From an uncultured Collinsella sp. (GTDB lineage Bacteria; Actinomycetota; Coriobacteriia; Coriobacteriales; Coriobacteriaceae), in contig CAKUFD010000014.1 of assembly GCA_934647195.1 (NCBI GenBank), forward strand, positions 1 through 34,327: 34,327 bases of DNA, read 5' to 3'. The first letter of the stretch is position 1; each line of letters starts with the position of its first letter. The notes under the pieces are model-generated. The model saw only the letters and a list, made by a program, of their open reading frames with translations, was not told the origin of the DNA and ran no database searches. A program made the position numbers and the translations under genes. Of this stretch, positions 6,511-28,308 are shown one piece after another.

Positions 6511-7533
6511 ATGATGAATTCTGAGCTAGATTATATAACCGAGCAGCTTAAGGCGCTGACTTCGATTGCTTCGCCTACGGGCTATACCCGTGCGGTGACC
6601 GACTACGTGATGGAGACCCTTGAGGGGATGGGCTTTGCACCCGAGCACTCGACGAAGGGCAATGTGCTCGTGTGCTTGGGCGGCGAGAGCGAGCCTCTCG
6701 TGCTGGCAAGTCACGTGGACACGCTCGGTGCCATGGTTCGCTCCATCAAGGACAACGGCCGCTTGCGCCCGACGACCCTCGGCGGCCATCAGTGGTCTAC
6801 GGCCGATGGCGAAAACTGCACCGTGCACACGCGCGATGGTCGCGTCTATACCGGCGTTGTGCTCAACACCGAGCCTTCGGCGCATGTGGCGGACGAGCCG
6901 GTCAAGACCGTCGAGAAGAACATGGAGATCTTGCTCGACGAGAACGTTGACACCAAGGATGGCGTGGCCGAGCTGGGCATCCAGACGGGCGATATCATCG
7001 CCTTGGATCCTCGCACGGTGATTACCGAGAGCGGCTACATCAAGAGCCGCTTTTTGGACGATAAGCTTTCTGCCGCCATCTTGCTGGGCCTGGCCCGCGC
7101 GGTCGCCGCGGGGGACATTAAGCTCTCGCGCAAGGTGTCCCTGCTCTTCACGGTGTATGAGGAGGTCGGTCACGGCGGTGCCTTTGTGCCTGCAGACACA
7201 TGCGAGATGATTAGCGTGGATATGGGCTGTGTGGGCGACGACTTGGGCTGCACCGAGCGCATGGTCTCCATCTGTGCCAAAGATTCCGGTGGCCCCTACA
7301 ACTACGAGCTGGTGAGCGCACTTGCCGATACAGCCAAACGCCTGGACCTCGGCTACGCCATCGACGTCTATCCGCATTACGGCTCGGACGTGGAGGCCAC
7401 GCTCCGTGCAGGTTACGACATTCGCCATGGCCTCATTGGCCCCGGCGTGTACGCGAGCCATAACTACGAGCGCTCGCACATGGACGGCGTGCGCAACACG
7501 TACGAGCTGCTGCGCGCATACGTAGGGGAGTAG
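6511..7533 (+). CDS. M42-family metallo-aminopeptidase
   Basis: The 340-residue protein has the family metal-binding layout: SHVDT (His68), a bridging Asp in FLDDKLSA, the catalytic glutamates in YEEVGHGG, an Asp in SVDMG and a C-terminal His in SHNYERSH. This order is typical of M42 glutamyl-aminopeptidase/endoglucanase-M-like cytosolic enzymes, which trim N-terminal residues from peptides using two metal ions. The start is the first ATG of an ATGATG pair after ATAGGAGCG; the TTG eight codons upstream lacks a ribosome-binding site. It appears to be monocistronic. Substrate preference cannot be read from the sequence. Confidence 0.9.
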   Translation: MMNSELDYITEQLKALTSIASPTGYTRAVTDYVMETLEGMGFAPEHSTKGNVLVCLGGESEPLVLASHVDTLGAMVRSIKDNGRLRPTTLGGHQWSTADGENCTVHTRDGRVYTGVVLNTEPSAHVADEPVKTVEKNMEILLDENVDTKDGVAELGIQTGDIIALDPRTVITESGYIKSRFLDDKLSAAILLGLARAVAAGDIKLSRKVSLLFTVYEEVGHGGAFVPADTCEMISVDMGCVGDDLGCTERMVSICAKDSGGPYNYELVSALADTAKRLDLGYAIDVYPHYGSDVEATLRAGYDIRHGLIGPGVYASHNYERSHMDGVRNTYELLRAYVGE

Positions 7534-13961: not shown

Positions 13962-13996
13962 AAGCCCGTCCGCAGTTCGCGGATGGGCTTTTTTGT
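13962..13996 (+). terminator. Rho-independent terminator after argS
   Basis: AAGCCCGTCCGC-loop-GCGGATGGGCTT forms a 12-base stem (one G-U pair) followed directly by a T run. Confidence 0.9.
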
Positions 13997-14103: not shown

Positions 14104-14117
14104 TTAACAATTGTGAA
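14104..14117. promoter_or_regulatory. FNR/CprK-type binding site upstream of hpdB
   Basis: TTAAC-AATT-GTGAA is a 14-base dyad with the 5+4+5 spacing of FNR and CprK sites (TTGAT-N4-ATCAA, TTAAT-N4-ATTAA), with 12 of 14 positions symmetric. It lies about 60 bases upstream of the start expected from the TATATA element at 14158. The Crp/Fnr gene at the far end of the hpd cluster is the obvious candidate regulator. This is inference. Confidence 0.5.
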
Positions 14118-14136
14118 ACATGCACAGGTAATGAGG

Positions 14137-14163: not shown

Positions 14164-14289
14164 CAACGGACTTTATTCAAGTAGAGTTTTTTAGTTAGCC
14201 TAAGTGAACCTGCGCATCGTGCGCGCACCACATACCGAACACATCCCTTGAACGACCGTTCGTCTGCTCCTTGCGCAAAGTACACGTCA

Positions 14290-14305: not shown

Positions 14306-14407
14306 CACGTACTATCCCCCTAGCGATGCGGGAAGCCCGAAGGAGGGACACGAAGGCCAACCGCAACGAAGTTAGGGTCTGCACGTTTGCACACAAGGAG
14401 GTACACC

Positions 14408-17116
14408 GTGGACAAACAGACAAAGATCTTTGAGATTCTCGAGGCACGCAACAGGCAGGATAAGAGCTTGGACGTCTCTGTTGACGCCGGCTACACCGAG
14501 GAAGAGATTCCCGCTCCCAGCCCGCGTTTCGAGAAGCTCATCAACATCTACTACCAGATGAAGAACACGATCGATATGGAGATCCCGTATTGGTATAACC
14601 GTGTCTGGTGGGAGAACGAGGGCGACGTCCCTGAGATTCGTCGCGCTAAGGCTTATGGTGCTGCTCTCGCACACACCACCCCGACCATCTGGCCGGGCGA
14701 GCTGCTCGTTATGAACAAGACCAAGAACTGGCGTGGCGCCTTCCCGTTCCCGTGGGTCGACGCTTCGTTCTTCAACGCCCAGGCTGAGGCCCTCCTCGCC
14801 GAGGCTGAGGCTCCGGCTCTGGCCGAGGCCGACCGTATGTCCGTCGTCGGCGCTGGTGGCGGTAACGTCACCGAGAGCTTCGGCAACGTCGTTTCCATCG
14901 CCCAGAAGTTCGGTCTGCGCAAGGAAGAAGTCCCCATTCTGGTGAAGATCTCCAGGTACTGGGACAACTGCTCCATCGAGGTCATTACCCAGAACTACTC
15001 CGAGGCCATTCCTGACTACTATAAGTACAAGGCCTATCGCGACACCGTTCTCGTCATGTTCGACTCTTGGGCCATCCCTCAGGGCCGCGAGATCATCAAC
15101 TACTACATGCCTCTCGAGTACGGCTTCGACCGCATCATCGAGATGTGCGACGAGAAGATCGCCGAGATCCTCGGTCTCGCCGAGAACGGCGACGGTCTGC
15201 TGGGCATGAGCCGTGGTTACTACTACATGGCTATGAAGGAGATCACCAAGGGTCTCTCCGCTTGGGCAGATAACTACGGCAAGCGCGCCGAGTCCCTCGC
15301 TGAGTGCGAGCCTGATCCTCAGCAGAAGAAGGAGTACGAGGACATCGCTGTTGTCATGCACAACATCGCCCATAAGCAGCCCTCGACCTTCCGTGAGGCT
15401 CTCCAGCTCACCTTCCTGTGCCACCTCGCCGTGGTCAACGAGGACCCGCAGTCCGGCCAGTCCATCGGTCGTTTGGGCCAGGTCCTGCAGCCCTTCTACG
15501 AGAAGGACCTCGAGGACGGCACCATTACCGAGGAAGAGGCCATTGAGCTTCTCGAGCTCTATCGCATTAAGATCACCTCGATCGAGTGCTTCGCTTCCTC
15601 TGGCGTTACCGGCGGCGTTCTGTCCGGCAACACCTTCAACAACCTGTCCCTCGGCGGCCTCTCTCGCGATGGTCTGACCGCTGTCACCCCGCTCGAGTAC
15701 CTCATCGTCGAGGCCGGCACCCGCGCCCGTACCACGCAGCCGACGCTTTCCGTCCTCTATGACGAGAAGACGCCTGAGGAGTTCCTCATGAAGGCAGCCC
15801 GCTGCTGCAAGGGCGGTCAGGGCTACCCCGCATGGATGAACAACCAGTGCGGTATGAACTACATGCTGCGTCATTATCACGACGAGGGCATGACGGTCGA
15901 GGACGCCCGCGCATGGTGCCTCGGTGGCTGCCTCGAGTCTTCGCCCGGCTGCTTCCTGCCGCTGCACTACAACGGCAAGACCACCTGGATCCCCGGTGGC
16001 GCCGCTCCGACTGCTGGTACCGGTATCCACTTCACCGGTCTGCCCAAGCTGCTCGAGCTCGTCCTCACCAACGGTGTCGACAAGCGTACCGGCATCAAGG
16101 TCTTCGAGCCGCACAACCGTGAGCTCAAGACTATGGACGATGTCTGGGATGTCTGGATGGACTACATGACCGAGCTGTGCGACATCTCGCTCAAGGTCAA
16201 CAACATCCAGATGGACATCTGGCGTAAGAACAACCCGCCTGTGGTCGCTTCCCTCCTGAAGCCCGACTGCTTCACCAAGGGTCAGACCCTTTCCAACATG
16301 GGCTGCCGCTACAACGCCACCATCAACTTCGAGTCTTGCGGTACCGTTACCTTCATCAACGCGATGGCGTCTCTCAAGAAGAACGTCTTCGACGAGAAGA
16401 AGTACACGCTCGACGAGATGATGGATGCTCTGGAGCACAATTTCGGCTTCAAGACTGCATTCGAGACCGGCGTCTTCTCGCCCGACCGTCGCGAGGCTAC
16501 CGACGAGGCCGTGAAGTACGAGAAGATCTTCACCGACTGCGTCAACGCTCCTAAGTTCGGTAACGCCGATCCTTATGTCGACGACCTCATGGTGCACTAC
16601 GAGGACCTCATGACCGCGCTCATGCCGACCCTGAAGTCCTACTACGGCAAGCCGCTGTACATGTGCCAGATCTCCGTGTCCACCCACGGCCCGCAGGGCG
16701 CTATCACCCTCGCTTCCGCCGACGGCCGCCTCGCTGGCGTCACCTACGCCGACGGCTCCGTCTCGCCTGCCGCTAACACGGACAAGAACGGCATCTACGC
16801 GGTGTTCACCTCCGCTACCTGCTACGACCACTCCAGGAACCAGAACGCTCAGATGAACGTCAAGATTCACCCGAGCGCCGTGGCCGGCATCAACGGTACT
16901 CGCAAGCTGCTCGACGTCATCCGCGCCTACATGCGCAAGGGTGGCTTCCACGTCCAGTTCAACATCACGTCTTCCAAGACGCTGCGCGAGGCCCAGAAGA
17001 AGCCTGACGATTATCGTGACCTTATGGTTCGCGTCGCTGGCTTCACCCAGTATTGGTGCGAGATCGGTAAGCCTATCCAGGACGAGGTCATCTACCGTAC
17101 TGAGTACGAGATGTAG
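14408..17116 (+). CDS. hpdB: 4-hydroxyphenylacetate decarboxylase, glycyl radical subunit
   Basis: The 902-residue glycyl radical enzyme starts at GTG after AAGGAGG. The thiyl-radical Cys508 and catalytic Glu510 lie in GGCLESSPG, with His541 (GIHFTG), Glu642 (FESCG) and radical Gly878 (RVAGFTQYW). Known catalytic residues of the clostridial HPAD are, from memory, Cys503, Glu505, His536, Glu637 and Gly873; all five map here with a constant +5 offset. With the small subunit next door, this identifies HPAD rather than indoleacetate or phenylacetate decarboxylase. The enzyme turns 4-hydroxyphenylacetate, a tyrosine fermentation product, into p-cresol and CO2. It is strictly anaerobic, since oxygen cleaves the activated chain. 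Strong codon bias suggests high expression. Confidence 0.95.
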   Translation: MDKQTKIFEILEARNRQDKSLDVSVDAGYTEEEIPAPSPRFEKLINIYYQMKNTIDMEIPYWYNRVWWENEGDVPEIRRAKAYGAALAHTTPTIWPGELLVMNKTKNWRGAFPFPWVDASFFNAQAEALLAEAEAPALAEADRMSVVGAGGGNVTESFGNVVSIAQKFGLRKEEVPILVKISRYWDNCSIEVITQNYSEAIPDYYKYKAYRDTVLVMFDSWAIPQGREIINYYMPLEYGFDRIIEMCDEKIAEILGLAENGDGLLGMSRGYYYMAMKEITKGLSAWADNYGKRAESLAECEPDPQQKKEYEDIAVVMHNIAHKQPSTFREALQLTFLCHLAVVNEDPQSGQSIGRLGQVLQPFYEKDLEDGTITEEEAIELLELYRIKITSIECFASSGVTGGVLSGNTFNNLSLGGLSRDGLTAVTPLEYLIVEAGTRARTTQPTLSVLYDEKTPEEFLMKAARCCKGGQGYPAWMNNQCGMNYMLRHYHDEGMTVEDARAWCLGGCLESSPGCFLPLHYNGKTTWIPGGAAPTAGTGIHFTGLPKLLELVLTNGVDKRTGIKVFEPHNRELKTMDDVWDVWMDYMTELCDISLKVNNIQMDIWRKNNPPVVASLLKPDCFTKGQTLSNMGCRYNATINFESCGTVTFINAMASLKKNVFDEKKYTLDEMMDALEHNFGFKTAFETGVFSPDRREATDEAVKYEKIFTDCVNAPKFGNADPYVDDLMVHYEDLMTALMPTLKSYYGKPLYMCQISVSTHGPQGAITLASADGRLAGVTYADGSVSPAANTDKNGIYAVFTSATCYDHSRNQNAQMNVKIHPSAVAGINGTRKLLDVIRAYMRKGGFHVQFNITSSKTLREAQKKPDDYRDLMVRVAGFTQYWCEIGKPIQDEVIYRTEYEM

Positions 17117-17139
17117 AAAACTGAGGAGTTGTATTCGAT

Positions 17140-17400
17140 ATGAAGCATTACGAGTGCAAGCATTTCCTGGCGCTGGACTGCGAAAAGGGTATGTGCGCCG
17201 TCAGCAGGATGATCGTTCCTCTGGATGGCGAGGGCTCCGACGCCTGCCCCCACTTCGAGTGCGGCAAGCTGTGCAAGTTCTGCGCTAAGTTCCACGATGC
17301 CGATTCTCATGGCATTGGCACCTGCTCCGGCTTCGAGAAGGAGACCTGGGCATACGGTGACTGCGGCGCCTTCTGCTGCGAGAACTTCGAGAACGCGTAG
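17140..17400 (+). CDS. hpdC: 4-hydroxyphenylacetate decarboxylase, small Fe-S subunit
   Basis: The 86-residue protein is very rich in cysteine. His3, Cys6, Cys19 and Cys36 match the unusual His/Cys3 ligand set of the first [4Fe-4S] cluster in clostridial HpdC. Cys45, Cys48, Cys62 and Cys80 match the second set with a two-residue shift (numbers from memory). The subunit joins HpdB in a hetero-oligomer and is needed for regulation and activity. Arylacetate decarboxylases acting on phenylacetate lack it, so its presence supports the HPAD assignment. The gene starts 23 bases after hpdB and is followed by a strong hairpin. Confidence 0.95.
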   Translation: MKHYECKHFLALDCEKGMCAVSRMIVPLDGEGSDACPHFECGKLCKFCAKFHDADSHGIGTCSGFEKETWAYGDCGAFCCENFENA

Positions 17401-17432
17401 TAACGTTCTGACTTCCCTATAGCGGGATCTAG

Positions 17433-17472
17433 GTCCCGGCCGGTCTATCGCCTGGCCGGCCGGGACTTTTCT
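17433..17472 (+). terminator. Strong hairpin/terminator inside the hpd operon, between hpdC and hpdA
   Basis: GTCCCGGCCGG and CCGGCCGGGAC form a perfect 11-base stem followed by TTTTCT. It probably stops or stalls most transcripts after hpdBC, or protects the 3' end of a processed hpdBC message, so that the activase and later genes are made at lower levels. Confidence 0.85.
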
Positions 17473-17498
17473 ATTCCTACCACGTGATCGGAGGGGCC

Positions 17499-18443
17499 AT
17501 GAGCGCCGAGCCCACAGGCATGATTTTTGATATTCAGAGTTATTCGGTGCACGATGGTCCCGGCTGCCGCACTAACGTGTTCTTTACGGGATGCCCCTTG
17601 AAGTGCCGTTGGTGCGCCAATCCGGAGAGCTGGCGCCCCAAGCTCCAGTTCATGTTTGCTGACCGCGTGTGCAAGTGGGATCAAGGCTGCAAGGCGTGCA
17701 GGGACGCGTGCCCCAATGGGTCGATTCAGTTCGACGAGAACGGAAAGCCGAGCGTAGACTGGAAAATCTGCAACGACTGCGAGACCATCGAGTGCACCAC
17801 TTCGTGCGCTGCCGGTGCCCTCAAGCAGACCGTTCGCATCATGACGGTATCCGACCTTGTCAACACGCTGCGTCGCGACTACAACAACTGGGGCTCCGAC
17901 GGCGGTGTCACCTTTACCGGTGGCGAGCCGCTCCTGCATCATGAATATCTGGATGCAGTACTTAAGGAGTGCAAGAAGCTCTCGATGCACACCGCAATCG
18001 AGACCAGCGGATACGCAACCGAGGAAGTGTTCATGAAGATCTTCCGTCGTCTGGACTTCGCGTTCGTCGATGTCAAGAACATGGACCCCGAGGCTCACAA
18101 GTGGGGCACCGGCGTTTCCAATGAGCGCATTCTCGACAACATCCGCGCCCTTAAGTGCTCTGGATGGCCCGGCCGCCTGGTGCTGCGTCAGCCGACGATC
18201 CATGGCTTCAATGACAGCGATGAGAACGCCAAGCGTCTCATCGAGTTCATGAACGAGAACGGTCTCTACGAGATCAACCTGCTTAAGTTCCATCGTTTGG
18301 GTCAGACCAAGTGGGAGCAGCTCGGTAAGAAGTACGAGTACTCCGATCATGGTGATATGACTCCCGAGCGCATGAGCGAGCTGCAGGATTTGTACCTCGA
18401 TAACAACATCGCTTGCTATGTTGGCGATGACACTCCGTTCTAA
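17499..18443 (+). CDS. hpdA: 4-hydroxyphenylacetate decarboxylase activating enzyme (radical SAM)
   Basis: The 314-residue glycyl-radical activase has its radical SAM cluster motif CxxxCxxC at Cys32, Cys36 and Cys39 (GCPLKCRWC). A ferredoxin-like insert carries two further clusters (C-x5-C-x2-C-x3-CP, then C-x2-C-x4-C-x3-C). The TFTGGEPLLH stretch binds SAM. It removes a hydrogen from Gly878 of HpdB to make the glycyl radical. The start is the ATG after GGAGGGG; the GTG five codons earlier is less likely. The insert separates it from the shorter PflA. Its place after hpdBC gives the partner without ambiguity. Confidence 0.95.
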   Translation: MSAEPTGMIFDIQSYSVHDGPGCRTNVFFTGCPLKCRWCANPESWRPKLQFMFADRVCKWDQGCKACRDACPNGSIQFDENGKPSVDWKICNDCETIECTTSCAAGALKQTVRIMTVSDLVNTLRRDYNNWGSDGGVTFTGGEPLLHHEYLDAVLKECKKLSMHTAIETSGYATEEVFMKIFRRLDFAFVDVKNMDPEAHKWGTGVSNERILDNIRALKCSGWPGRLVLRQPTIHGFNDSDENAKRLIEFMNENGLYEINLLKFHRLGQTKWEQLGKKYEYSDHGDMTPERMSELQDLYLDNNIACYVGDDTPF

Positions 18444-18478
18444 TTAATCTCAATCGTGTAGTTGAGGAGGCGTTGAAC

Positions 18479-19414
18479 ATGGTTTTCGACGCTAACGCAT
18501 ATGAGGCGACGGTTCGTGATTACCATCGCCAGGGGGACATGACCGCACTCGAGGGTTATCTAACCCAAGAAATCGCGCGTTTGCGTGAATCGGGCACGAT
18601 TTGCGCCGGCGTCGCTTGCACTTGCGGCAAGGATGCCGATGCACTCGCCGAAGAAGATGCTGCTTGGCAGCATAATCGCGAGCAGGGCCTCATCGTTGCC
18701 CTCTCCGATTTGGCCGATCTCTATCGTTCCTCCGGCGCTTGGTACAAGTGCCTGGAGACGTACGAGGAGCTTCGTCAGTGCCTGATCGACGAAGGCCTTG
18801 AGAACACGCCTGCCTATGCAAGCGCTCTGGTCAATGCCGGGTATGCCTGCCTGGATGCAACCGATCCGGAGCGCGCTGCCCGTCTAATCGAGGAGGCCCT
18901 CAACGCTTTGGGCGACCCCGACCCCGAGGTTCCTACCGCCGTTCTGCGCGCTCGCGCCCACGATGCCCTGGCTGTTTCTTGGGCCATGCGTGGCTTTGCC
19001 GAGCAGGCCGAGCAGGCATCGGACGCCGCCGCCGAGGCGGTCTCCGTATGCTGCGCGACAGGGGAGGACTTCATTGGCGCCCTCTCCAATCACATCGCGA
19101 CTCTGGCGCAGATCGGGCGCGTCGATGAGGCTGTTTCCGCTGTGCGCGGCGCACTTGAATCCGGTGAGCAGACTCTAGCAGCGCAGGACCGCTACACCTT
19201 GATGAATCTTCACGCGATGGTGCTCTATCGCGCCAAGCGCTTCGCCGATGCCGGCGACGCCATGGCGGAGCTCATCGACCTCGCTCGCGCTTCGAACGAT
19301 TTGACGGCCCAGCTTCCGTCGATCGCCCGCAACGCGGCAACTATGTACAACCGTGCCGGCGATGCCGGGAAGGCTCAGTCCTTCACCGCATTGGCCGACC
19401 AATTGGAAAGCTGA
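18479..19414 (+). CDS. TPR-like helical-repeat protein of the hpd operon, function unknown
   Basis: The 311-residue soluble protein has no signal peptide or membrane helix. From about residue 75 on it is made of helical pairs rich in Ala, Leu and Glu resembling tetratricopeptide repeats, for example LSDLADLYRSSGAWYKCLETY and AGYACLDATDPERAARLIEEAL-like units. Before the repeats there is a small cysteine cluster (ICAGVACTCG). GAGGAGG lies 8 bases before the ATG; a TTG two codons earlier is less well placed. It starts 35 bases after hpdA and ends 10 bases before the transporter gene, so it is surely co-transcribed. TPR proteins are scaffolds, so a role in assembling or regulating the decarboxylase is a reasonable guess only. 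Confidence 0.8.
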   Translation: MVFDANAYEATVRDYHRQGDMTALEGYLTQEIARLRESGTICAGVACTCGKDADALAEEDAAWQHNREQGLIVALSDLADLYRSSGAWYKCLETYEELRQCLIDEGLENTPAYASALVNAGYACLDATDPERAARLIEEALNALGDPDPEVPTAVLRARAHDALAVSWAMRGFAEQAEQASDAAAEAVSVCCATGEDFIGALSNHIATLAQIGRVDEAVSAVRGALESGEQTLAAQDRYTLMNLHAMVLYRAKRFADAGDAMAELIDLARASNDLTAQLPSIARNAATMYNRAGDAGKAQSFTALADQLES

Positions 19415-19424
19415 GGTTACACTC

Positions 19425-20726
19425 ATGGCAATCTCCAAAGAGACGGCTAAAAAATATGGTACTTGTACCGTAATCGCTGCATGGCTTGCCGTTTTCTGCC
19501 TCTTTGGCTACAGGTCTTCGTTCTCCATCATGCAGACGTCGCTCGTCGACGGCATGGGCTGGACTTCGACCCAGGCCTCGCTCGGCTACTGCTTCATGAT
19601 GACGTTCTACGCCATCACGGCATTCTTCAGCGGCTCGCTGATCGACAAGCGCGGCACGAAGCCCACCTACATCATCGGTGCTATCTGCTGCTTCCTGGGC
19701 TTCTTCCTGACCTCCTTCATTCCTGAGGGCGTCTCCTGGTCCTTCCCGGTCTACCTGCTGAGCTACGGCGTCTTCGCCGGCGTCGGCACCGGTATGCTCT
19801 GGGTCTCTTCGACCATCTCCTGCCGCAAGTGGTACGTCGGTGCCTCCTATGGCTCCAAGTGGGGTCTTGCCTTCATGGGCGCCCCGATGGCCCAGCTGCT
19901 GCTCACCATCGTGGTTTCCCCGGTTCTTAAGAACGCCGGTTGGTCCATGGGCATGAAGCTCCTCTCCGTGATTATGGCCGTCATGCTGCTCATCGCCGCT
20001 GCTGTCGCCAAGCCCATGCCCGACAAGATCGGTGCTCAGCCCTTTGGCCTGGATTCCCTGCCCAAGAAGGACGAGAGTGCTAAGCCCGCTCGCACCTGGA
20101 CGGTTGGCGAGGCCTTCAAGACCCGCGCTCTGTGGTGCGATATCTTCGCCTTCATGTTCGCAGTCATGGGCGAGTTCCTCATCTGGTCTCAGGTCGTTCG
20201 CTTCTTCACCATCGACCTCGGCTGGACTCAGGAGTCCCTGTTCGGTATGCCTCTTGCTAACGTCGTCTACATGCTCATCGGTTTCGCTGGCATCTTCGCT
20301 ATGCCTATCACCGGTAAGATCTCTGACGCCCTCGTTGTCAAGATGGGCGTCGAGCGTCCCGCTCGTCGTCTCATGCTCGTCGTCTCCCCGCTGTTCGGCA
20401 TCGCTGGCGTCCTTTGCGCACTGACCGGTAACTTCCCGATCGTCTGCCTGGGCATGGTCCTGCTGTCCGTCTACTGGGGCATTGAGCCCGGTGGCGCTGC
20501 CGGCTACGCTGGCACCGTCTTTGGTGGCGCTTCCCTCGGCAAGATCTGGGGTCTCGCTACGCTCATCATCATGGGCATCGGTCCTTCGTTCGGCACCTTC
20601 ATGGGCGCCTTCCTGTTCGACATGACCGGCACCTACACGACGTCGCTCTACTTCGGTCTGGGCGCTTACATCGTGTCCGCCATCTTCGCCGTCCTGCTTC
20701 CCAAGAAGATGAAGGGCGAGGAGTAA
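19425..20726 (+). CDS. MFS transporter (OFA-like), probable aromatic acid/p-cresol transporter
   Basis: The 433-residue protein has twelve predicted membrane helices. The loop between helices 2 and 3 carries the MFS signature in variant form (GSLIDKRGTKP), repeated in part after helix 8 (GKISDALVVKMG). Overall layout resembles the oxalate/formate antiporter (OFA) branch of the major facilitators. The start ATG follows GAGG, 10 bases after the TPR gene. Position in the operon suggests uptake of 4-hydroxyphenylacetate, possibly exchanged for p-cresol or a proton, but substrate is inferred from context alone. Codon use is strongly biased like hpdB. Confidence 0.88.
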   Translation: MAISKETAKKYGTCTVIAAWLAVFCLFGYRSSFSIMQTSLVDGMGWTSTQASLGYCFMMTFYAITAFFSGSLIDKRGTKPTYIIGAICCFLGFFLTSFIPEGVSWSFPVYLLSYGVFAGVGTGMLWVSSTISCRKWYVGASYGSKWGLAFMGAPMAQLLLTIVVSPVLKNAGWSMGMKLLSVIMAVMLLIAAAVAKPMPDKIGAQPFGLDSLPKKDESAKPARTWTVGEAFKTRALWCDIFAFMFAVMGEFLIWSQVVRFFTIDLGWTQESLFGMPLANVVYMLIGFAGIFAMPITGKISDALVVKMGVERPARRLMLVVSPLFGIAGVLCALTGNFPIVCLGMVLLSVYWGIEPGGAAGYAGTVFGGASLGKIWGLATLIIMGIGPSFGTFMGAFLFDMTGTYTTSLYFGLGAYIVSAIFAVLLPKKMKGEE

Positions 20727-20771
20727 ACCAACTAGCCGTTGAAATAAGAGCTAACCCGTAAGGAGCTTACT

Positions 20772-21212
20772 ATGAAGACTGCCGAATTCCTTCCGAGCCT
20801 CTATACCCGCAATGAAGTTGTCGACGGCCAGCACAAAGAGCTCATCAAGCGTATCAACGATCTCTATGCTGCTCTCGCAAGCGAAGATGAGGCCGCTCGT
20901 GCCGCCAAGGCGGAGGAGACTCTGAGCTTCTTGGCCGAGTACACCGTGTTCCACTTTGCCAGCGAAGAAGAGCTTATGCAGAATGCAAAGTACCCCCTCT
21001 TCACTGAGCACAAGGCTAAGCACGACGCCTTTGTCGAGACCGTCAAGGGTCTCCATGCAGACCTCGTTGCCGGCGGTCCAACCGATGCTTTCGCCGAGAA
21101 GGTTGAAGAAGAGGTCACCAACTGGCTCATCAACCACATCAAGGGCACGGATATGCAGGCGATCGAGTGGATCAATAACAAGTCCGGCGACCAGATGCAG
21201 AATCTGCAGTAG
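20772..21212 (+). CDS. Bacteriohemerythrin
   Basis: The 146-residue four-helix protein has the full set of diiron ligands: His21 (DGQHKEL), His61 and Glu65 (FHFASEE), His80 and His84 (HKAKH), His122 and Asp127 (NHIKGTD). Bacteriohemerythrins bind O2 reversibly and serve as oxygen scavengers, carriers or sensors. The gene is 45 bases after the transporter, has its own AAGGAGC site, and is followed by the operon terminator. In an operon for an enzyme destroyed by oxygen, a protective or sensing role is attractive; this is inference. There is no attached signalling domain, so it acts as a free protein. Confidence 0.93.
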   Translation: MKTAEFLPSLYTRNEVVDGQHKELIKRINDLYAALASEDEAARAAKAEETLSFLAEYTVFHFASEEELMQNAKYPLFTEHKAKHDAFVETVKGLHADLVAGGPTDAFAEKVEEEVTNWLINHIKGTDMQAIEWINNKSGDQMQNLQ

Positions 21213-21235
21213 TCATATCTACTAGCCTCTCTCGG

Positions 21236-21267
21236 CGCCCTCGGCCTAGCGGTCGGGGGCGTTTTTT
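21236..21267 (+). terminator. Terminator of the hpd operon
   Basis: CGCCCTCGGCC-TAGC-GGTCGGGGGCG makes a GC-rich hairpin (one G-U pair) ending in six T residues. Confidence 0.9.
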
Positions 21268-21281
21268 CTTGCACGGCCGCG

Positions 21282-21327
21282 TTTTGGTAAAACAAATCCG
21301 GGCGCCCGCAGGTTTCGGACACCCGGA
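21282..21327 (-). terminator. Terminator of the Crp/Fnr-chaperone unit
   Basis: On the minus strand TCCGGG...CCCGGA closes a hairpin with an inner CCG/CGG stem, followed by a TTTGTTTT tract. It faces the hpd operon terminator, separating the convergent units. Confidence 0.65.
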
Positions 21328-21352
21328 TCGGAAAGAGGACTCTTTTGTTTTG

Positions 21353-21949
21353 TTAGTTGAGTACGAGCTGCTTCATGAAATCGGCCGCCTTGGATACGGA
21401 GATGTCCTGGCGCACACTCTCATTTTCGCCGCTGGTGGCGAAGAACCCCACAAGGCCCTCGGTTGGCATGCCGTAAGAGGAGGAGAGGCGCTCGACCTCG
21501 TTGGCGTAATCGGCGTCGGTTGCCTCGAGGCCTTCTGTTTTGGCGATCGCCAAAAGGACGATGCGCTGCCTGAGCTGCTGCTTCGCTTCAACTTCGAACT
21601 CGGCGATAAGCTGGTCCTTAGTGGTCTTCATTGCCTTGAGGTAATCGTCCAGCGAAAGCTGGTCGTTGTCCAGCTTTTGCTGGAGCGTACGGCCCATGGA
21701 GAGGGCGCGTTCGTGTGCGACCTGCTTGGGTACGCGCAAGGTGCTGTTGTTGGCGATTTTCTCGACAAAGGCAGCCTGCAAGAAGTAATCGGTCGTGAGA
21801 CTCTGCTGACTTTCGGGCACAGCGGCCGCCTGCTGCATGGCCTGCTTGCGCTCCTCGTCGGTGAGCGTGATCGCGCGGTAATCTGCGAGTTGTACCGGAA
21901 TGCGGAAAGACTCGTACGTTACTTCCACGGTGTTTGGTGCTTTGGTCAT
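21353..21949 (-). CDS. Trigger factor C-terminal-domain-like protein
   Basis: The 198-residue soluble protein is mostly helical and resembles the C-terminal chaperone module of trigger factor (SurA-like arms). Phrases such as YFLQAAFVEKIANNS, VAHERALSMGRTLQQ and RQRIVLLAIAKTEGLEATDAD fit that family. The ribosome-docking domain and the FKBP-type prolyl isomerase domain of normal trigger factor are absent, so this is not the housekeeping chaperone. It starts after AGGAACG, 11 bases past the Crp/Fnr gene, and is surely in the same operon. Its place next to the hpd genes suggests a dedicated chaperone for a product of that cluster. Family similarity is moderate; role is inferred. Confidence 0.75.
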   Translation of the reverse strand: MTKAPNTVEVTYESFRIPVQLADYRAITLTDEERKQAMQQAAAVPESQQSLTTDYFLQAAFVEKIANNSTLRVPKQVAHERALSMGRTLQQKLDNDQLSLDDYLKAMKTTKDQLIAEFEVEAKQQLRQRIVLLAIAKTEGLEATDADYANEVERLSSSYGMPTEGLVGFFATSGENESVRQDISVSKAADFMKQLVLN

Positions 21950-21960
21950 GATATTCGTTC

Positions 21961-22617
21961 CTAATCGCGGTTTTCGTTGAATTCGAGTGCGGGCTGGGCG
22001 ATATTTCGCAGTTGCTCGCGATCCCTGATGCATACGAGGCCGGTCTGCTCATACGAGATGATCTTGAGCGCCTCGAAGTCGGAGATGATGTTGTACAGAT
22101 TGCGGCGGCTGATTCCCAGTTCGTCACAGGTTTTGGAGACGTTTTCCATATAGCAATCGTTGTTCTCGGCATCGAGGATAAGATGCGCCGCAAAGCGCTG
22201 TCGCGGGGTGAACAGGTCGTAGGACAGCCTGCGGCGATACATGTCGTAAAGGCGTGAGCTCATCTTAAAGTAGAAGAAGAGCCTGAAATCCTTATCTTTG
22301 ATAAGGTTGTTGAAGATGGGATTTGGAATGCGGATGCAGGCGCAGGGTGTGACCGCGATGCAGTCGCAGTAAAGATTCTGCCCCCAGTACTTGCTTAAGT
22401 GTCCGGTCCACTCGTCTTCAACGTTGTCGTCTACATGGATGCGCCTGCCATTGTGCGAGGTCGCCACAACCTCGATTTGGCCTTCGATCACGTACCAGTA
22501 GTCTTCGTTGCGCGCGATGCAGCTACTGATGCATTCACCCTTTCCAAAACGATAGAGGATTTTGCATTCGGGAAAATCCTTGATGAAGGGGTAAATTCCA
22601 GAGTCCTCAAGCTTCAC
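21961..22617 (-). CDS. Cysteine-rich Crp/Fnr-family regulator
   Basis: The 218-residue protein has an N-terminal cyclic-nucleotide-like sensor domain (about 10-115, with YWYVIEGQIEVV), a long dimer helix, and a C-terminal winged helix (SKTCDELGISRRNLYNIISD). Seven cysteines fall in the sensor domain at 18, 29, 33, 84, 86, 92 and 94, the last four as CxC-x5-CxC. This is not the standard FNR pattern but could bind a metal or Fe-S cluster or act as a redox switch. CprK of Desulfitobacterium, another family member, senses chlorinated 4-hydroxyphenylacetate, so an hpd substrate sensor is plausible. It starts at GTG after GGGAGG. Control of hpdB is inferred from context. Confidence 0.88.
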   Translation of the reverse strand: MKLEDSGIYPFIKDFPECKILYRFGKGECISSCIARNEDYWYVIEGQIEVVATSHNGRRIHVDDNVEDEWTGHLSKYWGQNLYCDCIAVTPCACIRIPNPIFNNLIKDKDFRLFFYFKMSSRLYDMYRRRLSYDLFTPRQRFAAHLILDAENNDCYMENVSKTCDELGISRRNLYNIISDFEALKIISYEQTGLVCIRDREQLRNIAQPALEFNENRD

Positions 22618-23225
22618 GTGCTGCCTCCCTTGCAGTCGCGGCGGAATCTGTAATTTGCTGTATTATCGACACTTTGGTGGGCAACGTACACGCGCAAAAT
22701 GCGCATATGCCGGATGAACGGCCGTATATTTCGATTAGCGTTAAAGGTTGCGCATGGGGCTATTCAAATACCCAGACAGGTGCGTCTAAAAAGGGCCACG
22801 TATGCGGTTTTTGCAGACGAAGTGACGTGTTTGTGCGCAATAAACGAAGCCTATTAAATGCATTCCTACCGGTCTTATAGGTTTTATTTTTGACCCATGG
22901 TTTTGAATGACTGAACCGCCTTTACGCATTTATTGCGTAAAGGCATTTAGGCGCTTATTCCCGGGGGCGCTGCAATTTGGGGCCGTTTGGGTTTCGTGGC
23001 CCCATTCCGTCATGTTGCGTCTTGCGCGCTTGTGCTACACTTGGCAACAAGAGCGCAACACATCCATTTCTACAGTTCTATTACGTATTTGCTGATCGCA
23101 TCACATGAGCTTTACCTGCGTATTTGCGCTGTTTTGGACTCGCGTAAGAGGCGAGTTGAATTCTCTCATTTCATAGGAAGCATGCCACGGAAAGAGTGGC
23201 TGCATATAAGGAGGTAGTATTCCGC
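22618..23225. other. 608-base intergenic region between divergent genes
   Basis: Only short, unconvincing open frames are present. It must hold the promoters of the Crp/Fnr unit (leftward) and of the transaldolase-rho unit (rightward). TACACT near 23035 preceded by TTGCGT is a possible rightward promoter. AT-rich sequence alternates with GC-rich. The main visible structure is the perfect dyad at 22918-22944. Confidence 0.6.
22918..22944. repeat. Perfect 11-base inverted repeat
   Basis: GCCTTTACGCA-TTTAT-TGCGTAAAGGC. No T run follows on either strand, so it is either a regulator operator or a structured RNA element rather than an ordinary terminator. Confidence 0.7.
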
Positions 23226-23909
23226 ATGAAGTTCTTCATCGACACCGCTGATCTTGACGAGATTGCAGAGGCCAAAAGCTGGGGCTGTCTAGCCGGCGTC
23301 ACCACCAACCCGTCCCTGTACGCCCGTACGGGCGGCAAGCTTGCGGACTTCGAGCCCCACATGCTGAAGATCGCAGAGCTCTGCGAGGGCCTTCCCGTTT
23401 CCGCTGAGTCCACTGCTACGACCGCCGAGGGCATGATCGAGGAGGGCCGCCGCCTGGCCGCGCTCGCTCCCAACATCGTGGTTAAGCTCCCTGTGTGCGA
23501 GGCTGGTCTCGCCGCCACGCATGCACTCGCTGCCGAGGGCGTTCGCATCAACATGACGCTCGTCTTCTCCGCAACCCAGGCGCTTCTCGCTGCCAACGCG
23601 GGCGCTCGCTACATCTCGCCGTTCGTCGGCCGCTTTGACGATATTGCCGAGGACGGTATCGAGCAGCTGGCAAACGTCGTCACGTGCATCCAGAACTACG
23701 ACTGGACGGGCAAGAACGTCGACGACCAGGTCGAGATCATCACCGCCTCCGTGCGCACCCCCAACCACGTCACCCAGGCGGCTCTGCTGGGCGCCGATAT
23801 CGCGACCGTGCCGTTCGCCGCGCTCAAGAAGTGCCTCCAGCATCCCCTGACCGATCGCGGTCTCGCAAGCTTCGAGGCCGACTGGAAGAAAGTAGTTGAG
23901 CAGGCATAG
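23226..23909 (+). CDS. Transaldolase/fructose-6-phosphate aldolase-like protein (TalC/FSA type)
   Basis: The 227-residue single-domain TIM barrel begins MKFFIDTADLDEI and has GVTTNPSL early and the Schiff-base lysine in NIVVKLPV, as in the short transaldolase/FSA subfamily. Later motifs ISPFVGRFDDI and ASVRTPNHV also fit. Short family members either transfer dihydroxyacetone units in the pentose phosphate pathway or act as fructose-6-phosphate aldolases; motifs visible here do not separate these. The ATG follows AAGGAGG at a longish 11-base gap. Its stop codon overlaps the GTG of rho by one base, so translation is probably coupled. Confidence 0.9.
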   Translation: MKFFIDTADLDEIAEAKSWGCLAGVTTNPSLYARTGGKLADFEPHMLKIAELCEGLPVSAESTATTAEGMIEEGRRLAALAPNIVVKLPVCEAGLAATHALAAEGVRINMTLVFSATQALLAANAGARYISPFVGRFDDIAEDGIEQLANVVTCIQNYDWTGKNVDDQVEIITASVRTPNHVTQAALLGADIATVPFAALKKCLQHPLTDRGLASFEADWKKVVEQA

Positions 23910-26125
23910 TGGTGACTGAAGAAACTCAGATTCCCGAGAACCAAGCGCCTGTTGAAGCTGACGCTGCGCCGAAGGTCCCCGCGCGTCCTCGGCGCACGCG
24001 CAAGGCTGCGCCGAAAGCCGAGGATGAGGCCGCTCCGAAGCCCGTCCGCAAGCGTACGCGCGCTGTGAAGGAAGAGGCGGCAGAGGCTGTTTCTCCGGAG
24101 GTGGCGCAGGCTCGCGCCCTTGCGCAGGTCATGCAGGCGCAGGTCGTTCGAGATGAGCGCCAGCGCCAAGAGCGCGAGGCCGAGGCGCTTGCGGGTGATG
24201 CTCCCGCAGCGCCCAAGAAGACGACGCGTCGCCGCAAGGCAGCTGAGGCGGCGAAACCTGCCGATTCGGAGAAGCCGGCGGACGCGCCCGCTCCCGTCGA
24301 GGCTTCGACGCCCGATGCTGAGGAGCCCTCTCGTCCCGTTCGCCGCACGCGCAAGCCGAAGGCGGAAAAGGCCCCGGTAAGCAAAGAGGAGGGCGAGGGG
24401 TCTTCGAACGAGGCTTCTGCACCCGACGCTTCTGAGGGCAAGGACGTTCGTCCCGGTCGCGCTCGCCGTACGCGCAAGGCATCCGCGGCATCGCAGGAGG
24501 CTCAGCAAAGCGACTCTTCGTCTTCTTCCGAAAAGGCGAATGAACAAGATGCGCCCATTCTCAAAGAGGAAAAGGCGCCAAAGGAGCTAAAGGAGTTCGA
24601 AGAGCCAAAGCCGCTAAAGCAGGGTAAAGAGGACGAGCCGAAGGATGCATCCGACAAGAAGGATGCTCCGAGCTCTGATGGTGATGCTTCGGTTGCGGAT
24701 TCCTCGGATTCCGCTCGTGGCGACAAGCGCCGCAAGCATCAAAACAAGCGTGAGCACGCCGAGCGCAACGACCGCAACGGCGATCGCCGCAATGGGCGCC
24801 AGCAGAACCGCAAGCAGCGTGGAAACAATCGCTATGCCGCCCCTCTCGAGCCGAGTCTCTCGCGTGAGGACCTGACGGCTATGAAGGTCGCTGAGCTGCG
24901 CGAAAAGGGCAAAGAGCTCGATCTTGACGTGACTGGCAAGAAGAAGGCCGAGCTTGTCGAAGAAATTTACACCGCTGCCGCTCGTGCAGAGGGTTTCCGC
25001 GACATTCAGGGTATTCTCGATATCACCAATGAGGGTTTTGGCTATATTCGTGCCCACGGATACATGCCCAGCCGCGATGACGCTTTTGTGCCGCTGAATA
25101 TGATTCGCGCCGCGCGTTTGCGTCCCGGCGATGTGATCGAGGGGACGCTGCGTCCTTCTCGTGCAAACGATAAATTCCCGGGTTTGGCCAAGATCCGCAC
25201 CATCAACGGCAAAGATCCCGAGGAGATGCGTCATCGCCCCAAATTCTCCGAGCTCACGCCCATTTACCCCAACGAGCCGCTCAAGATGGAGCATGGTCGC
25301 GATTCCATCACCGGCCGCGCTATCGACATCGTTTCGCCGATCGGCAAGGGCCAGCGCGGCCTGATTGTCTCGCCCCCTAAGGCGGGCAAGACGACCATCC
25401 TGAAGAAGATTTGCCAGTCGATCGCTGCGAACAATCCCGAGGTCTATCTTATTTGTCTGCTGGTGGATGAGCGCCCCGAGGAAGTCACCGACATGGAGCG
25501 TTCCATCAAGGGCGATGTCGTTGCCTCGACGTTCGATATGCCTGCCGACAACCACACGCGCGTTTCCGAGCTCGTGATCGAGCGCGCGAAGCGTATCGTC
25601 GAGATGGGCGGTGACGTGGTGGTTGTGCTCGACTCCATTACACGTCTTGCCCGTGCGTACAATCTCGCCGCGCCGGCGTCGGGTCGCATCCTTTCCGGTG
25701 GCGTCGATTCGGCGGCGTTGTATCCGCCTAAGCGCTTCTTGGGCGCCGCGCGCAATATCGAGAACGGCGGATCGCTGACGATTCTCGCTTCGGCGCTTAT
25801 CGACACGGGCTCCAAGATGGATGAAGTCATCTTCGAGGAGTTCAAGGGCACCGGTAACATGGAGCTCAAGCTCGACCGCGATCTGGCTGATCGCCGTATT
25901 TTCCCGGCTATCGATCCGGTGGCGTCCGGTACTCGCAACGAGGACCTTCTTATCGACGAGAACATGCGTCCTTTTGTTTGGGGCATTCGCCGAATTCTCG
26001 CCAATATGAACAATACCGAGCGCAGCGCGGCTGCGTTCATCAAGGGTCTCAAGGGAACGAATTCCAACGAAGAGTTCTTGATTCGATCGGCGAAAAAAGC
26101 TGCTGATCATGAAGCTTCGCTCTAA
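23909..26125 (+). CDS. rho: Transcription termination factor Rho with long disordered N-terminus
   Basis: The 738-residue protein has a C-terminal canonical Rho. The Rho N-terminal helical domain starts near 317, the cold-shock-like RNA-binding domain near 368-430 (GFGYIRAHGY), Walker A near 488-496 (SPPKAGKTT), and Walker B in VVVLDSITRLARAY. The first about 310 residues are low-complexity, rich in Lys, Arg, Glu, Ala and Pro, and contain RRTRK three times (28-32, 145-149, 186-190) plus variants near 47 and 107. Actinobacterial Rho proteins often have such insertions, which add RNA contacts. Rho is a hexameric RNA helicase that ends untranslated transcripts. GTG at 23909 or 23912 may be the start. 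A strong terminator follows. Confidence 0.96.
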   Translation: MVTEETQIPENQAPVEADAAPKVPARPRRTRKAAPKAEDEAAPKPVRKRTRAVKEEAAEAVSPEVAQARALAQVMQAQVVRDERQRQEREAEALAGDAPAAPKKTTRRRKAAEAAKPADSEKPADAPAPVEASTPDAEEPSRPVRRTRKPKAEKAPVSKEEGEGSSNEASAPDASEGKDVRPGRARRTRKASAASQEAQQSDSSSSSEKANEQDAPILKEEKAPKELKEFEEPKPLKQGKEDEPKDASDKKDAPSSDGDASVADSSDSARGDKRRKHQNKREHAERNDRNGDRRNGRQQNRKQRGNNRYAAPLEPSLSREDLTAMKVAELREKGKELDLDVTGKKKAELVEEIYTAAARAEGFRDIQGILDITNEGFGYIRAHGYMPSRDDAFVPLNMIRAARLRPGDVIEGTLRPSRANDKFPGLAKIRTINGKDPEEMRHRPKFSELTPIYPNEPLKMEHGRDSITGRAIDIVSPIGKGQRGLIVSPPKAGKTTILKKICQSIAANNPEVYLICLLVDERPEEVTDMERSIKGDVVASTFDMPADNHTRVSELVIERAKRIVEMGGDVVVVLDSITRLARAYNLAAPASGRILSGGVDSAALYPPKRFLGAARNIENGGSLTILASALIDTGSKMDEVIFEEFKGTGNMELKLDRDLADRRIFPAIDPVASGTRNEDLLIDENMRPFVWGIRRILANMNNTERSAAAFIKGLKGTNSNEEFLIRSAKKAADHEASL

Positions 26126-28020: not shown

Positions 28021-28097
28021 GTGGGTGTAGCTCAGTTGGCTAGAGCGACGGGTTGTGGTCCCGTAGGTCGAGGGTTCGAGTCCCTTTACCCACCCCA
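28021..28097 (+). tRNA. tRNA-His (GTG)
   Basis: A full cloverleaf is visible. Acceptor GTGGGTG pairs with TACCCAC (one G-U), the anticodon stem ACGGG/CCCGT encloses TTGTGGT with anticodon GTG, and the T-loop is GGTTCGAGTCC-like. The base before the 5' end (28020) is G, able to serve as the G-1 needed by histidyl-tRNA synthetase opposite discriminator C at 28094. CCA is encoded. Confidence 0.97.
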
Positions 28098-28117
28098 TCA
28101 CCTCTCATAGAGTAGTT

Positions 28118-28194
28118 GGACCGTTAGCTCAGCTGGCTAGAGCAGGGGACTCTTAATCCCAAGGTCCAGGGTTCGAATCCCTGACGGTCCACCA
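28118..28194 (+). tRNA. tRNA-Lys (CTT), copy 1
   Basis: Acceptor GGACCGT pairs with ACGGTCC; the anticodon loop CTCTTAA gives anticodon CTT; the T-arm is GGGTTCGAATCCC. CCA is encoded. It is identical to copy 2 over all 77 bases. Confidence 0.97.
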
Positions 28195-28208
28195 TCCTTA
28201 TAATCAAG

Positions 28209-28228
28209 CTCCAGTGATGGAGTTTTTT
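28209..28228 (+). terminator. Short terminator between the two tRNA-Lys copies
   Basis: CTCCA-GTGA-TGGAG is a 5-base stem followed by six T. The stem is weak, so read-through into the second tRNA-Lys is likely. Confidence 0.6.
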
Positions 28229-28231
28229 ATT

Positions 28232-28308
28232 GGACCGTTAGCTCAGCTGGCTAGAGCAGGGGACTCTTAATCCCAAGGTCCAGGGTTCGAATCCCTGACG
28301 GTCCACCA
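28232..28308 (+). tRNA. tRNA-Lys (CTT), copy 2
   Basis: It has the same sequence as the copy 114 bases upstream, including encoded CCA. There is no room for a separate consensus promoter in the 37-base gap between copies, so its expression probably depends on read-through. Confidence 0.97.

Follow-up and report, generated by a model that had tools for sequence, protein, structure and literature searches.

The HPAD locus and its genes

The 34,327-nt stretch of DNA from an uncultured Collinsella analyzed here, hereafter the window, carries an expanded gene cluster for the decarboxylase of 4-hydroxyphenylacetate (4-HPA), the p-cresol-forming glycyl radical enzyme hereafter abbreviated as HPAD, together with a regulator of the Crp family that is a candidate activator of the decarboxylase genes hpdBCA. 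An earlier note had given coordinates and strands for eight genes among the open reading frames (ORFs) of the window, and this placement is borne out by the ORFs themselves and by searches with NCBIfam and Pfam profiles. The plus strand presents, in this order, hpdB for the large, glycyl radical subunit (14408..17116, with a GTG start preceded by AAGGAGG), hpdC for the small iron-sulfur subunit (17140..17400), hpdA for the radical-SAM activase (17499..18443), a TPR protein (18479..19414), an MFS transporter (19425..20726) and a bacteriohemerythrin (20772..21212). The convergent unit on the minus strand encodes first the Crp-family regulator (21961..22617), hereafter Crp, and then a stand-alone trigger-factor C domain, hereafter TrigC (21353..21949).

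The three HPAD proteins exceed the curated NCBIfam cut-offs, with 1609 bits for the large subunit (NF033715, cut-off 1150), 101 bits for the small subunit (NF033716, cut-off 50) and 530 bits for the cognate activase (NF033717, cut-off 420), and the enzyme is assigned to HPAD on this basis. Its large subunit contains CLESS and RVAGFTQYW, which we take to hold the functional residues of the Cys-x-Glu and glycyl radical motifs. The hemerythrin domain reaches 108 bits (TIGR02481, cut-off 51.75), while Pfam recognizes TPR_12 (PF13424, 39.3 bits, cut-off 30.1), MFS_1 (PF07690, 83.6 bits, cut-off 33.4) and Trigger_C (PF05698, 75.4 bits, cut-off 22.7). Crp is identified by its cNMP_binding domain (30.3 bits, cut-off 27.5), by profile searches and by a structure model, its helix-turn-helix scoring under the Pfam cut-off (21.2 vs 27). 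The HpdB sequence shares 99% identity with its counterpart in Collinsella bouchesdurhonensis Marseille-P3296 (locus L001), a species of Coriobacteriia to which the window is assigned.

To place these genes in context we counted the neighbours of hpdB, within the fetched flanks and with profiles built in this analysis, in 77 loci that are mostly clostridial and derive from one scan of a species-genome collection. Near hpdB lie hpdC in 76 loci, hpdA in 75, the Crp subfamily in 32, MFS in 23, TrigC in 13, DUF6198 in 11, DUF4125 in 10, a Clp-type ATPase in 9, hemerythrin in 8, and TPR and DUF4037 in 7 each. These counts partly contradict the earlier note, according to which well-known clostridial hpdBCA operons are not known to include the TPR, hemerythrin, chaperone-like and Crp genes. 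Crp is also present in 12 of the 13 loci with TrigC. The fullest version is found in the Atopobium metagenome-assembled genome (MAG) UBA2090 (L003, L109 and L110), in which hpdB-C-A-TPR-MFS-hemerythrin is convergent with TrigC-Crp and a Clp-TPR-DUF4037-DUF4125 unit is divergent from Crp. Gene content and arrangement vary among lineages, and the association thus exceeds inherited gene order. The same variation could be taken to mean that an ordinary hpdBCA operon has these additional genes nearby by chance; this we hold to be extremely improbable, given that Crp and TrigC co-occur exclusively with HPAD and that an operator is linked to these genes, as detailed below.

The Crp subfamily and its predicted operator

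HPAD is sporadic in Coriobacteriia, hpdC being present in 15 of 346 genomes, three of which (G001, G009 and G138) have HPAD of the window type as judged by neighbourhood. With the Crp profile these three genomes score 281-289 bits and genome G263 scores 154 bits, no other of the 346 matching at E 1e-22; all four belong to the 15 HPAD-positive genomes (hypergeometric p ~2e-6, kinship ignored), and at this threshold none of the 331 HPAD-negative ones gave a match to the subfamily. Among 71 genomes of Peptostreptococcaceae, Crp was detected at E 1e-24 in 13, all included in the 19 with HPAD (p ~5e-10, kinship again ignored), and at the same threshold it was not found in the 52 genomes negative for HPAD. 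Profiles A1 and A2 were built with the window, L094, L097, L010 and other hpd-linked rows, so that matches in G001, G138, G009 and G006 arise by construction and the information resides in the misses and in outside matches such as those of Clostridioides and G263.

HPAD-positive G263 has its Crp elsewhere, beside a different glycyl radical enzyme. Two such clusters, L127:7993-13775 in G263 and L141:8960-14140 in G364, combine a Crp relative with a glycyl radical enzyme of 806-810 amino acids and an activase, to which an hpd-type MFS (L127) or DUF6198 (L141) is added, and form a second enzyme system; the glycyl radical enzyme of L127 passes no NCBIfam cut-off.

The AlphaFold model of the window Crp (pLDDT 88) has the usual Crp/Fnr fold, including a long helix, and matches CRP, FNR and CprK about equally, so that fold comparison does not separate them. 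Along the long helix R122 and Y124 are invariant in 43 aligned rows and M126 is conserved in 42 of them, while position K118, a conceivable counterpart of K133 of CprK, is Lys in 31 rows and Ser in 8. In comparison with the Glu/Arg phosphate-binding cassette for cAMP, in what we take to be the alignment register to CRP, column 73 is mostly His, Lys or Gln, column 81 Asn or Ser and column 82 Phe or Leu, with no Arg among the printed residues. The regulator had been described as a Cys-rich member of the Crp/Fnr family, and the window protein does contain 10 Cys; the best-conserved columns are C164 (33/43) and C84 (29/43), the N-terminal C29 is found in 12/43 rows, and the subfamily appears to be without the conserved N-terminal Cys set that, in the FNR pattern we presume for comparison, binds a 4Fe-4S cluster.

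Expectation-maximization on the 250 bp upstream of hpdB in 29 dereplicated Crp-positive loci produced an odd-centred palindrome, aGTGCAaatTGCACt, with half-sites GTGCA-N3-TGCAC, and nothing comparable emerged from 30 Crp-negative HPAD loci or from single-base shuffles, which were used in the first three shuffle controls. We chose the 17-bp odd-centred model; even-centred palindromes fitted worse and unconstrained models fitted better, with the same core. Removal of four near-copies and of L005 (about 60 bp) from 33 Crp-positive upstream regions left 28 usable ones; L001 is a duplicate of the window, L063 lacks upstream DNA, and L061 is counted as Crp-positive because its genome (G009) has a Crp on a different contig. 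The 45 loci in whose fetched DNA no Crp was found comprise 31 negatives (30 after near-copy removal), 12 that were scanned later, L064, which has no upstream DNA, and L061, which was moved to the positives.

With leave-one-out models a site of at least 12 bits is present in 28/28 Crp-positive loci vs 2/42 Crp-negative ones (1/30 and 1/12). The two negative loci with a strong site, L027 and L031, are on contigs of 7.1 and 7.3 kb, respectively, and the assembly of L031 has a Crp on L063. No site was found in 13 further Coriobacteriia loci of other HPAD types (including L057, already counted). When whole loci are scanned, the best site falls within 300 bp upstream of hpdB in 27 of the 28 loci (0.41 expected), the exception being L003, in which the best site precedes the Clp unit and the next two precede hpdB. 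Matches to TATAAT in at least 5/6 positions are commonest 28-31 bp past the site centre (8 loci at +30), a spacing that would put this centre near -41 relative to the presumed start of transcription, where a class II activator would bind. The predicted operator appears to be shared by other units in relatives: it precedes Crp in L097 (18.1 bits) and L010 (12.9 bits), lies between hpdB and the TPR gene in L094 (22.9 bits), and stands before the Clp-TPR-DUF4037-DUF4125 unit of L003 (17.7 bits) and, by position, before a TrigC-containing unit in L011 (16.3 bits).

Both of the two best sites in the window, TTGTGAAACATGCACAG (14111..14127, centred at 14119) and TTGCGCAAAGTACACGT (14271..14287, centred at 14279), are inside the 513-bp gap between argS and hpdB, with a possible -10 element, TACTAT, beside the latter (14310-14315); the third-best site is elsewhere (11.1 bits at 6822). 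Two weak overlapping operator-like sites upstream of crp (22677..22706; 8.4 and 7.3 bits) make autoregulation possible. Supporting, if not decisive, indications that this Crp reads this site come from the recognition helix. The residue after a nearly invariant Ser-Arg (R172 in the window) is Arg in 33/43 rows and Lys in 10/43; reading off by eye, position by position, we found that the fourth base of the left half-site is C (GTGCA) in 23/23 Arg loci with a scored site and T in 10/10 Lys loci (GTGTA, or GGGTA in Clostridioides).

This comparison extends to Clostridioides difficile, whose hpdBCA promoter is inducible by 4-HPA and requires an inverted repeat over its -35 box, removal of which abolishes induction (PMC7925072). 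Exactly one Crp of the subfamily, with 196-200 bits, is encoded in 8/8 genomes that we presume to be Clostridioides from gene content and the published repeat, and none was found in G376 and G377, both of which are without hpdC. The L143 Crp, the one Clostridioides sequence included in our tree, groups with the hpd-adjacent Crps of relatives. The published repeat AAAAAG-N13-CTTTTT stands before hpdB in exact form (AAAAAGTGGGTAATATACCCTTTTT) in L142 and L143 and as variants in L144, L145 and L146 (five promoters fetched), in register with the predicted operator in the four promoters scanned. The C. difficile system resembles that of the window in its three enzymes and, judging from the presumed Clostridioides genomes, in the Crp subfamily, while differing in that Crp is not adjacent and the repeat reads GGGTA..TACCC; five Clostridioides regions of 11-14 kb gave no match to TrigC, TPR, MFS or hemerythrin. 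According to a 2023 review, the regulator of hpdBCA and the 4-HPA transporter had yet to be identified (PMC9815643). The effect of CodY on hpdBCA is reported as indirect (PMC8588808), and the titles and abstracts among the literature matches listed name no hpdBCA-specific regulator. On sequence grounds the Crp subfamily is a strong candidate for this missing regulator.

4-HPA is put forward as the ligand of Crp on account of the genes it would regulate and of the findings in C. difficile. Crp might instead control the locus while sensing p-cresol, another aromatic acid or general stress, with TrigC and TPR (and Clp in relatives) guarding the cell from phenol damage, a view in keeping with the indirect assignment of the ligand, with the different glycyl radical enzyme beside a Crp relative and with the stress-type character of Clp, TrigC and TPR proteins. 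Since the C. difficile promoter responds to 4-HPA via a repeat at the same place (PMC7925072) and most Crp-positive loci have no Clp, we judge this possibility unlikely.

Helper proteins, transport and flanking features

TrigC shows an equally narrow distribution. In the 346 Coriobacteriia genomes its profile gives 236-256 bits for G138, G009 and G001, all with window-type HPAD, and at most 86 bits for the rest, where the matches listed nearly always lie in frames as long as a complete trigger factor; the 343 genomes without window-type HPAD yielded no stand-alone TrigC above this score. Short frames in G535, G560 and G111, considered as TrigC independent of hpd, were rejected: all three belong to ordinary tig genes with clpP and/or clpX next to them, and in G111 the frame of 180 aa results from tig being cut at the contig end. 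In 200 genomes of Lachnospiraceae hpdC occurs only in G006, which is also the only one with an intact stand-alone protein among the TrigC matches listed. TrigC is thus tied to HPAD as far as these genome comparisons reach. The TPR orthologue is present in 3/63 Coriobacteriia, all with window-type HPAD (G001, G003 and G138), and was not found in G009 or in 47 HPAD-negative genomes. The proposal of a linked module consequently withstands the comparison, as the Crp subfamily, a stand-alone TrigC above 86 bits and the TPR orthologue were not found in the HPAD-negative Coriobacteriia searched, nor the Crp subfamily in the HPAD-negative Peptostreptococcaceae, and we consider the association real and conserved. 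A decayed hpd locus was encountered in G622 (L154:8601-9986), where fragments of TrigC, Crp and hpdA adjoin near an ORF that, judged by eye, resembles a transposase gene; this genome gave no hpdC match.

Pfam matched Trigger_C alone in the window TrigC, which resembles trigger factor in its C-terminal substrate-binding domain and differs from it in having no match to the ribosome-binding N domain or the PPIase domain. The relatives in L002 and L005 keep Trigger_N, suggesting stepwise loss, and G001 has, at another place, a gene for full-length trigger factor. The best Foldseek match of the TrigC model (pLDDT 92) is a trigger-factor C domain (2nsa; E 1.6e-3, probability 1.00, TM 0.52, no match reaching E <=0.001), followed among others by Mycoplasma MPN555. 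By analogy with PceT, the dedicated chaperone of PceA (PMC8905343, PMC3306737), TrigC may hold HpdB or HpdC during maturation; the titles and abstracts among the literature matches listed report no dedicated chaperone for a glycyl radical enzyme.

A contrasting function would be the removal of oxygen-cut or misfolded HpdB by TrigC, TPR and, in relatives, the Clp-type ATPase, with TrigC as a protease adaptor and not a folding helper. In L010, L011, L012 and L036 a Clp gene lies close to that for TrigC, and the Clp proteins inspected have a G[FL] tripeptide at what is presumably the ClpP docking position. Trigger factor can, moreover, act as an adaptor of ClpXP (PMC7804408). We nonetheless find removal rather improbable, as no Clp gene is present in the window locus or the L001 flanks and the precedent of PceT type is one of maturation (PMC8905343). 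Genes for TPR, DUF4037 and DUF4125 recur beside several HPAD types (L109:10654-13083, L011, L036, L057 and L104-L106); DUF4037 has, judged by eye, a nucleotidyltransferase-like motif, and DUF4125 and DUF4037 proteins have been reported in a limonene ring-cleavage operon (PMC12583861). In L036:9938-22664, from a Phascolarctobacterium MAG, a TPR-DUF4037-DUF4125-TrigC-Clp block is enclosed by two copies of hpdB-hpdC that score equally with the profiles, neither Crp nor operator being found in the fetched DNA.

Glycyl radical enzymes are oxygen-sensitive as a class, and oxygen defence had been proposed as part of the module, alongside transport and control, in the earlier note. The hemerythrin gene indeed follows the direction of the operon and the window Crp has its 10 Cys, so that Crp could be an FNR-like oxygen sensor and hemerythrin an oxygen scavenger for the enzyme. 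A close hemerythrin is, however, an optional member, present in 2/4 Coriobacteriia with window-type HPAD (G001 and G003, not G138 and G009) and in 8/77 hpdB loci, hemerythrins in 11 other Coriobacteriia genomes being unrelated to it (at most 52 bits), and the Cys of the Crp subfamily are not conserved as an N-terminal set. We therefore rejected oxygen defence as the core function and regard such a module as very unlikely; of the self-contained p-cresol module, control and transport hold up, the regulator with its predicted operator being the strongest part and oxygen defence the weakest.

Transport would depend on the MFS protein, a candidate 4-HPA importer. An MFS protein beside HPAD has already been proposed as an arylacetate importer in Olsenella scatoligenes (PMC6181972), and the presence of HPAD in Coriobacteriia is likewise in print, for O. 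scatoligenes and O. uli (PMC4767918). The HPAD/IAD clusters of O. scatoligenes resemble the locus studied here (PMC6181972), whereas the examined text of the papers on the two Olsenella species makes no mention of Crp, TrigC, TPR or operator. The HPAD cluster of C. scatologenes, with HpdDEFG, HpdJ and HpdK, differs in making 4-HPA from tyrosine (PMC13285125); the same work surveys HPAD neighbourhoods in diverse bacteria, and the words regulator and transporter are absent from its main text.

Around these genes, argS ends upstream of hpdB with a terminator-like hairpin at 13962-13990, and the two convergent units are separated by terminator-like hairpins (21234..21329), one after the hemerythrin gene (21234-21263) and one on the minus strand after the TrigC gene (21329-21295); the count of such hairpins in the region, 8 vs 7.0 in shuffles, is not above chance. 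A promoter consensus scan found 2 sites vs 3.5 in shuffles. A strong hairpin lies between hpdC and hpdA (17431-17468), and hairpins of unrelated sequence occupy the same place in L003, L006, L061, L071 and L094, with none in L002, L010, L011 and L036. They perhaps set the level of the activase below that of the decarboxylase; a literature search on the hpdC-hpdA hairpin found nothing. Further downstream, the gene for Rho (23909-26125) encodes an N-terminal extension of ~318 residues ahead of the Rho domain, and tRNA-His and two tRNA-Lys(CTT) genes are arranged in tandem at 28021-28308.

Proposed activation of hpdBCA and its meaning

We propose that the window contains a locally controlled p-cresol locus, with Crp as the dedicated activator of hpdBCA and with transport and helper proteins as outlined above, a reading to which we assign a probability of about 0.7. 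The sequences show the gene identities, their linkage, and the operator motif with its place; binding, ligand, uptake and a chaperone function are inferred from them. Most likely Crp would first bind the substrate 4-HPA. It would then attach to the palindrome aGTGCAaatTGCACt, whose centre is near -41 of the hpdB promoter, and recruit RNA polymerase in the manner of a CRP-type class II activator. The MFS protein would import 4-HPA, and HpdA would activate the HpdB-HpdC complex. The dedicated holdase, or maturation factor, of this large, oxygen-sensitive iron-sulfur and glycyl radical complex is probably TrigC together with the TPR protein, in the way that PceT/RdhT serve reductive dehalogenases, and hemerythrin may serve as an optional oxygen buffer.

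Several observations weigh against this proposal. Few sites of the set are weaker than those of the window, whose scores of 14.2 bits (14111..14127) and 13.4 bits (14271..14287) lie inside the range of shuffled loci (mean 10.4, maximum 15.5), so that their position alone counts in their favour. The Lys rows of the recognition helix constitute a single clade (support 100/99), and the match between R172K and the operator thus amounts to one joint evolutionary change. In Clostridioides, Crp lies 7-22 kb from hpdC where the contig is shared (5/8 genomes) and on separate contigs in the other three, while the published repeat scores only 7-11 bits and a higher-scoring site is found elsewhere in the L142 and L143 loci. 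Other HPAD types are without Crp and operator, so control by Crp is not universal; TrigC is present in only 12/32 Crp-positive loci; and the Crp relatives beside a different glycyl radical enzyme (L127 and L141) imply that ligands may differ.

The closest functional parallel of the window Crp, in the sense of how it would work, is arguably CprK, which has 3-chloro-4-hydroxyphenylacetate as effector, responds to 4-HPA in a weak manner, with an apparent Kd of 210 uM, and requires its residue K133 (PMC3638464). The cprTKZEBACD and pceABCT clusters similarly place a trigger-factor-like chaperone and, in cpr, a Crp/Fnr regulator beside an anaerobic metalloenzyme (PMC8905343, PMC3306737); the enzyme here is instead a glycyl radical decarboxylase, and the operator GTGCA-N3-TGCAC contrasts with the CprK dehalobox TTAAT-N4-ATTAA. 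We did not class the window protein as a CprK: among 187 profile matches to solved structures the best 60 did not include CprK, and the operator derived here is not a dehalobox.

In a wider and more tentative reading, to which we give somewhat less than even odds, an undescribed Crp/Fnr subfamily with its own operator would be the missing 4-HPA-responsive activator in Actinomycetota as well as Bacillota, with Clostridioides among the latter, and in some of these bacteria would also govern a first-of-kind proteostasis set, consisting of a stand-alone trigger-factor domain, TPR, Clp-type unfoldase, DUF4037 and DUF4125, dedicated to a glycyl radical enzyme. As p-cresol is a toxic gut metabolite, the analysis puts forward a Crp subfamily, an operator and a transporter family for the gap in regulation and transport stated by the 2023 review (PMC9815643), and suggests that the presence of the site could be used to predict in which species 4-HPA turns on p-cresol formation. 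A chaperone dedicated to a glycyl radical enzyme is a further possibility that it raises.

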